NCBI RefSeq assembly: GCF_902788255.1
Contig: NZ_CADAJR010000011.1
Coordinates: 1 to 55,824, forward strand
DNA: 55,824 nucleotides
Origin: an uncultured Methanobrevibacter sp.
Lineage (GTDB): Archaea > Methanobacteriota > Methanobacteria > Methanobacteriales > Methanobacteriaceae
Direction of reading: 5' to 3'
Shown here: positions 129 to 2,031 of the stretch, piece after piece
How positions within the stretch are numbered: the stretch's first letter is position 1
How the letters are laid out: the number at the start of each line of letters is the position of its first letter
Program-made: the position numbers and the translations under genes
The notes under the pieces: model-generated
What the model was told of the DNA's origin: nothing
The model's input: the letters and a program-made list of their open reading frames with translations, nothing else
The model's database searches: none

Positions 129-254
129 TTAAAAAAATAATAGAATACCCAATTTGCAATTCATCCACTACTTTACAGAAGTTGTATTCTTGCATATTTA
201 TGATAAATAATAATTCATAATACCCTGCAAGACATCTAAATCTAAACAAAGTAC
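129..254 (-). ncRNA. Small-RNA-like unit 4 (diverged copy)
   Basis: This is the most diverged of four tandem units. It has the shared 5' end (TTGTACTTTG on the minus strand) exactly 32 nt downstream of its TATA element. It then shares a stretch with unit 1 (ATGTCTT.CAGGG) before diverging. Instead of the GGGAGTT/AACTCCC hairpin it can form a long imperfect stem with arms CTTGCA and TGCAAG and an inner TTATGA/TCATAA. A T-rich tract (TATTTTTTT) near 130 to 140 could end transcription. I infer a transcript of about 120 nt starting near 254. A spurious 78-residue frame crosses it but lacks any RBS or recognisable protein character. Confidence 0.4.
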
Positions 255-278
255 AATACAATATATGAAACAAACACC

Positions 279-305
279 ATATAAAGCTAATCGAAAGCAA
301 GAATT
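279..305 (-). promoter_or_regulatory. Promoter of small-RNA unit 4
   Basis: On the minus strand this reads TTGCTTTCGATTAG followed by CTTTATATGG: a BRE-like CGATTA plus a canonical archaeal TATA box. The upstream TTGCTTTCGAT is shared with the unit 3 promoter. A start about 26 nt downstream of the TATA centre falls on the G of TTGTAC. Confidence 0.55.
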
Positions 306-346
306 CAATCATATTTATTATATTAAAAAAATACTCATAAAGAGAA

Positions 347-456
347 ATACTGAAAAGTAGGGGGAGTTAAGACAACTCCCGAACATTTTTTCAAAAAGGG
401 AGAAATATTAAGAAAATAATTTACCACTTTAAAAGATATCAAATCTCTCAAAGTAC
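347..456 (-). ncRNA. Small-RNA-like unit 3
   Basis: Predicted transcript of about 105 nt, starting near the G of TTGTACTTTGAGAGAT and ending at a GGGAGTT-GTCTT-AACTCCC hairpin followed by CTACTTTTC. Near the 5' end a short stem, AGAGAT/ATCTTT with one G-U pair, sits where units 1 and 2 have equivalent stems of different sequence. A CTCCC about 18 nt before the terminator could pair with its GGGAG arm and compete with termination. No open reading frame with an RBS is present. The unit belongs to a tandem family; function is unknown. Confidence 0.55.
362..380 (-). terminator. Hairpin terminator of unit 3
   Basis: Perfect 7-bp stem GGGAGTT/AACTCCC with a 5-nt loop. The stem is identical to those at 525-542 and 742-758, while the loops differ. 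On the minus strand it is followed by CCTACTTTTC; on the plus strand by ACATTTTTTC, so bidirectional use is possible. Confidence 0.55.
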
Positions 457-480
457 AATACAATATATGAAACAAAGACT

Positions 481-510
481 ATATAAACCTTATCGAAAGC
501 AAGCACTCAC
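481..510 (-). promoter_or_regulatory. Promoter of small-RNA unit 3
   Basis: The minus strand reads GTGAGTGCTTGCTTTCGATA then AGGTTTATATAGT, that is, an upstream block, a BRE-like CGATAA and a TATA box TTTATATA. The same three blocks occur at the same spacing in front of the sister units. The predicted start is near 456. Confidence 0.65.
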
Positions 511-515
511 TATTT

Positions 516-623
516 AAAAAAAAAGGGAGTTAAAAAACTCCCTCGTGTGTTTTCAAATGGAAATTTAAAAAAATATTATACTTGCATAATACATACTTAA
601 AGAGATAAATACTCTCAAAGTAC
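516..623 (-). ncRNA. Small-RNA-like unit 2
   Basis: Predicted transcript of about 105 nt from the G of TTGTACTTTGAGAG to a GGGAGTT/AACTCCC hairpin followed by nine T residues, which is the clearest intrinsic-type terminator of the array. The 5' region can form GAGA/TCTC, and an internal AT-only stem TATTAT/ATAATA brackets GCAAGT. It shares promoter, 5' end and terminator with its neighbours but differs in the middle about 45 nt, as expected of related small RNAs with a variable part. No coding potential is seen. Confidence 0.6.
525..542 (-). terminator. Hairpin plus T9 terminator of unit 2
   Basis: GGGAGTT/AACTCCC stem, extendable by one A-T pair, with a 4-nt A loop on the plus strand. On the minus strand it is followed directly by nine T, which fixes the direction of transcription. 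Confidence 0.65.
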
Positions 624-647
624 AAATTAATCTATAAATTACATGAT

Positions 648-675
648 ATATAAAGGTTATCGAGTGTAAACACTC
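648..675 (-). promoter_or_regulatory. Promoter of small-RNA unit 2 with upstream palindrome
   Basis: On the minus strand GAGTGT-TT-ACACTC (662-675) abuts CGATAACC and the TATA box TTTATATAT. The palindrome lies directly upstream of the BRE, a position used by archaeal activators, and corresponds to the GAGTGCTTGC block of unit 3. The predicted start is near 623. Confidence 0.6.
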
Positions 676-734
676 ACTTACAGTCATAATATATAAAAAT
701 AACTTTTAAAAATAATTATTTAAAAAAATGGTGT

Positions 735-832
735 GAAAATAGGGAGTTTCAAACTCCCCGAATTAATAAAAGGGTATCGTATGAAGATTTAAAAATTTAT
801 TCCCTGAAAGACATCCACATCTTTCAAAGTAC
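735..832 (-). ncRNA. Small-RNA-like unit 1
   Basis: Predicted transcript of about 98 nt from the G of TTGTACTTTGAAAG to a GGGAGTTT/AAACTCCC hairpin followed by TATTTTC and a later T7. The 5' stem is GAAAGA/TCTTTC, replacing GAGA/TCTC of unit 2 at the same place, so base pairing rather than sequence is kept. ACCC ahead of the terminator could pair with GGGG at its foot. It is the unit nearest purA but is separated from it by purA's own terminator and a separate promoter. Confidence 0.6.
742..758 (-). terminator. Hairpin terminator of unit 1
   Basis: GGGAGTT/AACTCCC stem with a 3-nt loop; the same 7-bp stem as the two downstream units. On the minus strand TATTTTC follows. Confidence 0.55.
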
Positions 833-856
833 AAGTAAATATATTAAACTAGACAC

Positions 857-892
857 ATATAAAGTTTTTCGCATGCAAGTACCTACTTGCAT
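857..892 (-). promoter_or_regulatory. Promoter of small-RNA unit 1 with 20-bp palindrome
   Basis: A near-perfect palindrome, ATGCAAGTA-CC-TACTTGCAT (873-892), precedes CGAAAAAC and the TATA box TTTATATG on the minus strand. The TATA box is 32 nt from the TTGTACTTTG start block, as in the other three units. The palindrome is a likely regulator site next to the BRE. Confidence 0.6.
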
Positions 893-977: not shown

Positions 978-1000
978 AAGCTCATAAATGAAATGAGCTT
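978..1000 (-). terminator. purA terminator
   Basis: Perfect 8-bp stem AAGCTCAT/ATGAGCTT with a 7-nt loop, 11 bases past the purA stop. On the minus strand it is followed by a T-rich tract (TTTATTTTTCTTATTTTTC). Confidence 0.7.
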
Positions 1001-1011
1001 ACAATTTGAAA

Positions 1012-2031
1012 CTATAATAATTCTTTTCTTAAGTCAATAGTGTCCTTTAAATCAGGACCTGTTGAGATGATGGTAACTGGCACTCCAGTTTCTGTTTGTA
1101 TATCTTCAATGAAAGCCTTGGTTTCAGCAGACAACTCACTGTAATCCTGTACACGTGCACAGTCGAACAGTCTGTCAACACATGTCAATGCAATCTGGGT
1201 TGCACCGTTGATTCTACATGATTCCTTTGCAAGTTCCATATCAAAGTAGCCTATTCTTCTACGTCTTCCGGTAACGACACCGTATTCCTCAAGGCCTTTG
1301 CTTTCAGCTTCCTCTTGACTCATTTCGGTTGGGAAAGGTCCTTCTCCAACACGAGAAATATAAGATTTAAATACATTGATGACTTCATCTACTTTAGTTG
1401 GTCCTACACCCACATCCGCTGCAAAAGTTGATGCTGTGGTGTCTTTGCTTGTAACGAACGGATATGTTCCATAGTAAAGTGAAAGGGCAAAACCTTGTGA
1501 TCCTTCAATAAATACCTCTTCACCGTTATCAATCGCTTCATTACATGCAAGGGATACATCAGTGATATATTCCTCAAGTTCCGGAATATCCTTAGCAAGG
1601 TCAATGGTTCTCAATACACGGTCAGAGTTTGCTGGTCCACATCCTGAACCGGTACTTCCTATCTTTTTGGCCAAATGTTCTGAAGCCTTATCCCTGTTCA
1701 TGTGATCCTGTGAGATTATGGCACACCTAGGGTCTACAGACATCCTTTCTTTAATGTTATATTTCTTTAATTTTTCAAATTCATTAAATAATACATCCGG
1801 ATTTACTAGCACTCCTGCACCGATCATGAGCTTAGCGCCGGTATGTACAAAACCTGATGGGGTTAATCTTAAACCGTACTTTTCCCCATTGAACTCAACA
1901 GAGTGTCCTGCATTCGGTCCAACACCTGCACGGGCAATAATGTCCGGTTTGTCATTGTCACATAGGTAAGTGATACATTTTCCTTTACCTTCATCTCCCC
2001 ATGCTCCTCCAACTAAAATACTACAAGTCAT
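1012..2031 (-). CDS. purA: Adenylosuccinate synthetase
   Basis: Cytosolic enzyme joining IMP and aspartate with GTP to form adenylosuccinate, the first committed step to AMP. The N-terminal loop [11 protein letters not shown] (residues 8-18) holds the catalytic Asp13, and GVGPNAGHS supplies the second catalytic residue, His43. GSTGSGCGP (IMP site) and VVTGRRRR follow. At 339 residues it is the short archaeal form, against about 430 in bacteria. The ATG is preceded by AAAGGAG. It is monocistronic, with its own terminator and a promoter that carries an inverted repeat. Confidence 0.96.

Follow-up and report, generated by a model that had tools for sequence, protein, structure and literature searches.

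What are the four repeated blocks that lie head to tail on the minus strand directly past purA, at the end of a contig of an uncultured Methanobrevibacter sp. (G000:C11, analysed over its whole length of 55,824 nucleotides and referred to here as the window), and to which set of genes do they belong? An initial annotation regarded them as duplicated genes for small non-coding RNAs (ncRNAs) with a constant head, a constant tail and a variable centre; its observation was partly confirmed and its interpretation partly supported. The array probably consists of four tandem copies, three intact and one degenerate, of a small ncRNA gene from a cell-surface regulon of methanogens of the Methanobrevibacter type, and the RNAs would most likely be co-regulated riboregulators of that regulon. 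The promoter of the units, their membership in its regulon and the predicted anatomy of the RNAs are established at the level of sequence comparison, and these are treated first, before the readings that compete for the function of the array.

The four-unit array and its predicted transcripts

A search of the window for TTTATAT followed, after 22 nucleotides, by TTGTACTTTG returned four exact sites on the minus strand (285-247, 487-449, 654-616 and 863-825) and none besides, even when three mismatches were allowed. The tandem arrangement at a fixed promoter spacing described earlier is thus borne out, including the distance of 32 between CAAAGTACAA and ATATAAA in all four units. The sites form part of an 80-nt repeat whose four copies are 68-79% alike, with a spacing of 202/167/209. 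In addition, hairpins of the form GGGAGTT..AACTCCC occur at 362-380, 525-542 and 742-758, the only three in 55.8 kb (0.02 expected by chance), and they close units 2, 3 and 4, as had been noted, together with the T9 tract (516-524) that follows one of them; unit 1 has none. Two details required correction: counted from the first T of TTGTAC, the hairpins begin after 76-83 nt instead of the 73-79 nt given before, and the CGATAA or CGAAAA reported in front of each TATA box does not extend to unit 1 (247-285), which has CGATTA.

The upstream neighbour of the array, purA (adenylosuccinate synthetase, an ORF of 339 aa at 1012..2031 on the minus strand), lies outside the regulon, and its relatives in Methanobrevibacter are 90-96% identical. 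Between purA and the array, a hairpin, AAGCTCATTTCATTTATGAGCTT, followed by T-rich DNA (978..1000, minus strand) reads as the probable terminator of purA, and the array is absent at 40 Methanobrevibacter purA loci, none of which has a unit nearby. Thus, the location downstream of purA had been correctly recorded but is incidental. At the contig edge itself, a plus-strand reading frame (IEQGLLTRFMLKLNHWN..., 1-91) is open and cut off.

The four units, all of them on the minus strand, differ in their state of preservation. The promoter of unit 4 (825..892; 67.1 bits and E 2.3e-18 with the promoter model R1 described below) comprises an operator that is a perfect palindrome, TGCAAGT-N4-ACTTGCA (874..891), the same as in the regulon alignment (A1), a BRE (CGAAAA), a TATA box (863-857) and the start region TTGTACTTTG, with the predicted start at 834-832. 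The predicted sRNA of ~100 nt (735..834) would carry a 5' hairpin (829-802), a variable middle and a terminator stem (758-742), with a fold z of -2.36 relative to shuffles (first 36 nt, p 0.007). In unit 3, a near-intact operator (TGTAAGTGAGTGTTTACA, 682-665) and a TATA box at 654-648 belong to a promoter at 616..682 (54.6 bits, E 1.8e-14), and the predicted sRNA of ~109 nt (517..625) has its 5' hairpin at 623-593, its terminator at 542-525 and the T9 tract at 524-516 (fold z -5.29; first 36 nt, p 0.01). Unit 2 (promoter 449..512, TATA box 487-481; 53.2 bits, E 4.8e-14) has retained just the downstream operator half (CTTGCTTTCG), and its predicted sRNA of ~105 nt (353..458) combines a 5' hairpin (454-426), an unpaired CUCCC mid-RNA and a terminator (380-362), with a fold z of -3.27 (first 36 nt, p 0.003). 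The operator of unit 1 is mostly lost (promoter 247..309, TATA box 285-279; 49.5 bits, E 7e-13), and the DNA downstream (137..256) could form a 5' hairpin (first 36 nt, p 0.007), has no GGGAGTT/AACTCCC terminator and, as a whole, folds no better than shuffles (z -0.58); unit 1 looks like a degenerate or terminator-less copy. Across the array, the palindrome is complete in unit 4 and almost so in unit 3, and its left half has been lost in units 2 and 1.

This palindrome upstream of the BRE is absent from the initial annotation, and so is the finding that units 2-4 have a strong terminal hairpin with TTGTACTTTG as its 5' arm and a 3' arm that varies between units; from unit 4 to unit 3, the 5' stem shows one double change, from A-U to G-C. 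The predicted RNAs of units 2-4 would consist of this 5'-terminal hairpin, an AT-rich variable middle and the GGGAGTT/AACTCCC terminator. Each of these three units has its own promoter, an intrinsic-type terminator and no conserved ORF, which are the features sought in an sRNA gene.

The regulon promoter and its targets

When the DNA of units 3 and 4 was used as a query, the best matches elsewhere covered the stretch upstream of and including TTGTACTTTG, and in other genomes the RNA bodies were never matched. The aligned sites gave a 69-nt consensus (ATGYAAGTRRGYACTTRCATKCGAAAAMCTTTATAT, about 20 nt including TTTCATATA, then TTAATTGTACTTTG), made up of the TGCAAGT-N4-ACTTGCA palindrome, the BRE, the TATA box and a conserved start region. 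A sequence model of this promoter (R1, cut-off E < 1e-5), the training set of which included the four window units, placed these units at E 2.3e-18 to 7e-13 and detected 13 sites in the window genome, 4 of them in the array; three sites of this genome that lie outside both the window and the training set reached E 1.1e-18 to 2.1e-18. Within the genus (Methanobrevibacter sensu lato), 48 of 67 genomes have R1 sites; for the family the figure is 68 of 139 genomes, confined to 3 of 17 genera. Moreover, an independent pattern search found matches in 66/151 genomes of the order, against 0/151 for the reversed-pattern control. The promoter core has no exact match in viral contigs and, thus, there is no sign of a viral origin.

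Protein-coding transcripts, too, have TTGTACTTTG at their predicted start. Since the constant head coincides with a promoter core that also opens protein-coding transcripts, the window units are, judged by their DNA, members of a regulon and not a stand-alone RNA family, and the head that had been put forward as an RNA-family feature has to be reassigned to the core of a genus-wide promoter, which mostly drives secreted surface proteins.

For 138 distinct promoter sites the surrounding sequence was examined; at least 76 of them are followed by a reading frame whose N-terminus is hydrophobic, encoding small proteins that are secreted or anchored at the surface, some drive micro-ORFs, and about a quarter have no recognisable ORF. 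The targets include 161-residue secreted proteins of the VNDFKVD type and small proteins that combine a signal peptide with an Asn/Thr/Asp-rich linker and carry LPATGNPILALLA...RKK as a C-terminal anchor; many targets end in an LPATGNP-hydrophobic-RKK anchor, which resembles the Gram-positive LPXTG anchor but falls below the Pfam cut-off. The adhesin-like and surface-protein genes of Methanobrevibacter, as in M. ruminantium M1, are the gene class that shares the window promoter. In the surroundings of the site clusters of five genomes, only surface proteins were shared and no common transcription-factor gene was found. A description of how Methanobrevibacter surface-protein genes are controlled was not found in the literature, nor was one of the promoter or the RNAs in its searchable part, which is incomplete; the genome paper of M. 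ruminantium M1 lists 3 ncRNAs for this strain, and neither "palindrom" nor "promoter" occurs in its main text (PMC2812497).

Several targets are of other kinds. A 60-residue zinc-ribbon-like protein, MKMHKICPRCGS..., recurs at L066, L126, L016, L088 and L147, and L016 and L147 also have a protein of ~270 residues that matches the C-terminal domain of DUF2207 (PF20990; tested for L147). Two tandem promoters at L150 (G097:C4, 262 and 723) each precede an SD-led ORF of 7 codons, MRIPFIK, behind nearly identical leaders, possibly a signal peptide gene pair, and three promoters of G064 (L134, L135 and L136) have ~150-nt leaders in front of very short, conserved and amphipathic-looking peptides that begin with MAP(T/V)(G/L)..KLF.KIA.LF.

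Non-coding members and competing readings

In 28 ncRNA members of the regulon, the first 36 nt fold at a mean of -7.6 kcal/mol versus -3.3 kcal/mol for dinucleotide shuffles (Fisher 2.6e-17), and the neighbouring stretches, with the exception of the terminator, fold much more weakly. The arms of this 5' hairpin differ between members with pairing kept (GTGCC/GGCAC, TTGTACTT/AGTACAA, AAGTTAAAG/CTTTAACTT, GAGTT/AACTC and ACTTTGAG/CTCAAAG). The 5'-terminal hairpin thus counts as a conserved RNA secondary structure across the ncRNA members, whereas RNAalifold, run on a poor alignment of the three window units and L011, a locus of another genome, recovered a 4-bp terminator stem only and no covariation. 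ATTAACC or ATTGACC is present in 12 of the 27 ncRNA members (1.0 expected), mostly just past the hairpin, and 19/27 have CTCCC close to their 3' end (2.2 expected), although these counts, like those of the hairpins, overstate the independent events because the members of a tandem set are not independent. The window units have the 5' hairpin and the 3' CTCCC and lack ATTAACC/ATTGACC.

CTCCC was found in 0/65 mRNA leaders of the regulon, but hairpin-U-CTCCC also ends several regulon mRNAs, and CTCCC after a hairpin and a U-run was met in one weak case within 404 kb of window and purA-type loci, so that it is rare in housekeeping loci; CTCCC is therefore read as a 3'-end mark of the regulon rather than as a proven seed, and its candidacy as an sRNA-specific anti-SD seed is weakened. 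The mRNA leaders have 5' hairpins too, which are weaker (p 4e-6). Thus, neither the 5' hairpin nor the 3' CTCCC is specific to sRNAs.

Tandem ncRNA units also occur in other genomes, as triplets in G041 and G037 and as pairs in G051 and G034. Five units of G037 and G051 served to build a covariance model for a second sRNA type, distinct in sequence; the model also matches G034, G040 and G049, so that this type spans five species. The window RNA type, searched for in 139 genomes with the pattern TTGTACTT, 58-88 nt, GGGAGT..ACTCCC, is nearly species-specific, with three units in the window genome and one in a single other genome (G010, locus L011); the same pattern gave one stray match in G134, where no promoter site is present. 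In Rfam 15, a search at the gathering score recognised only a tRNA-Ser elsewhere in the window and left the array unmatched, and a search at E up to 10 added weak chance matches below threshold; related loci matched no Rfam family either. The proposal of duplicated small ncRNA genes without a named family is thus supported by the lack of a conserved ORF and of an Rfam match, by the folding of the 5' hairpin and terminator of units 2-4, which is better than that of shuffles, and by the tandem arrays in other species. As a separate observation, two ncRNA units of G011 (L017, 1490, and L076, 1500) have a 5' hairpin of the TTGTACTT/AGTACAA type followed by TAACTATTCCCCCC, and L017 continues into a GC-richer, structured-looking stretch.

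The strongest rival to this interpretation is that the units are decayed surface-protein genes, in which the promoter, leader and terminator are left, the reading frame has been lost and the transcripts are functionless. The units share with the mRNAs both the promoter and the hairpin-U-CTCCC 3' end, an anchored-protein gene of G014, behind one of the promoters (L059, 2818), is visibly reduced to a broken remnant, and the array itself shows decay from unit 4 to unit 1, with degeneration of unit 1 and of the operators in units 2 and 1. Nevertheless, such decay is an unlikely account of the whole, since the 5' hairpins are much stronger in the ncRNA members than in the mRNA leaders, the ATTAACC/ATTGACC motif of the former contrasts with AACC[CT] in 2/65 of the latter, one sRNA type keeps its sequence, tandem copies and terminator in five species, and window units 2-4 keep both hairpin and terminator. 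The two readings would be reconciled if the units arose from surface-protein genes and were later put to use as RNAs.

It is improbable that the units encode very short peptides from leaderless or SD-led micro-ORFs. Some sites elsewhere do drive SD-led micro-ORFs, such as the tandem MRIPFIK of G097 (L150), and peptides of ~20-30 aa are found at L107, L109 and L134-L136; however, no shared or SD-led ORF was found in the window units, the possible frames in units 4 (MWMSFRE) and 3 (MYYASIIFF) being unrelated and none being clear in unit 2. Similarly improbable is a local action, with the tandem promoters and terminators as a transcriptional buffer or the array as a DNA decoy titrating a transcription factor. 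The tandem repetition of the operator-promoter and the scant conservation of the bodies across species would fit it, but in units 1 and 2 no element is as poorly preserved as the operator, whereas the TATA box, start region and terminator have been retained, and a decoy would require the reverse.

Proposed regulation and known counterparts

If the units are co-regulated sRNA genes, as preferred here, a transcription factor would bind TGCAAGT-N4-ACTTGCA, centred ~50 bp upstream of the start, and switch on surface-protein genes and sRNAs together. The palindrome lies next to the BRE/TFB region, which would suit an activator, as a position next to the BRE is typical of archaeal activators. The 5' hairpin would protect the RNA and the hairpin terminator would end it, and the unpaired, C-containing and fast-changing middles might act as antisense seeds on mRNAs, by analogy with bacterial multicopy envelope-regulon sRNAs. 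In duplex prediction, the sRNA middles showed no preference for the regulon mRNAs of their own genome over mRNAs from other genomes (Fisher p 0.30); thus, there may be targets outside this set, or the RNAs may work via a protein.

Comparable circuits are known in bacteria, where the Qrr sRNAs of Vibrio and the sigma-E dependent MicA and RybB of enterobacteria are multicopy or multi-member sRNAs transcribed from the promoters of one regulator, beside protein-coding members of its regulon. The sharing of one regulator's promoters between sRNAs and protein-coding genes is the point of likeness, whereas those systems rely on bacterial sigma54 or sigma-E promoters and Hfq, and the promoter here is of the archaeal BRE/TATA type. 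Among methanogens, sRNA154 of Methanosarcina mazei is a nitrogen-regulated sRNA with its own regulated promoter, as proposed here, but it belongs to another order, Rfam gave no family match for the window units and no relation to the operator is known. This sRNA is mentioned in PMC11549558 and PMC9765008.

Two further candidates were rejected: a CRISPR array, given the low likeness of the 80-nt repeats, their irregular spacing and the promoters inside them, and C/D box sRNAs, as both the C box RUGAUGA and the D box CUGA are absent from the three predicted RNAs on reading. The nearest functional analogue would be LhrC1-5 of Listeria monocytogenes, several ~100-nt near-copies, each with its own conserved promoter and all under one envelope-related regulator, the LisRK two-component system, with three redundant unpaired UCCC sites and a surface adhesin among the targets (PMC4132741). 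Multiple copies of ~100 nt, own conserved promoters, a link to surface proteins, C-rich motifs of the UCCC type and hairpins are common to both. However, LhrC is bacterial and has no sequence relation to the window units, and CUCCC occurs in units 3 and 4 only inside the terminator stem and is free only in unit 2. Assignment as an LhrC-type sRNA was rejected, as CUCCC is mostly in or past the terminator and the mRNA pairing test was null; because redundant unpaired UCCC motifs that pair with SD sequences of surface-protein mRNAs are not matched here, LhrC is regarded as an analogue and not as the same family.

Rumen and gut Methanobrevibacter are among the main sources of methane from animals, and the proteins on their surface, thought to mediate contact with partners, are candidate vaccine targets. 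One readable promoter common to surface proteins and sRNA arrays would make the regulon predictable in any genome and give a handle on its factor. To our knowledge, archaeal regulons containing sRNAs are poorly described, and the present features point to a regulon of surface proteins and regulatory RNAs with one on-switch as undescribed in archaea; if true, archaea gain a multicopy sRNA family with a defined regulon. More tentatively, Methanobrevibacter and two sister genera might possess an envelope regulon with a single factor that jointly activates small surface proteins, by the dozen, and fast-evolving, tandem, trans-acting sRNAs, an archaeal counterpart of bacterial envelope-stress and quorum sRNA circuits with its own transcript marks, a terminal hairpin at the 5' end and hairpin-U-CUCCC at the 3' end.

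Three other sites of the window genome deserve mention. At L031 (G000:C10:58052 and 58142), a pair of operators spaced 90 bp apart precedes a TnpB-like ORF close to a contig end. At L022 (G000:C18:40713-40777), a surface-protein gene is frameshifted at an A-run right past its start, through a sequencing error, a phase-variable tract or decay. L033 (G000:C7:27388-27451), where a weaker promoter is followed by several strong hairpins and the stretch up to the next gene holds no ORF, is possibly a further ncRNA.
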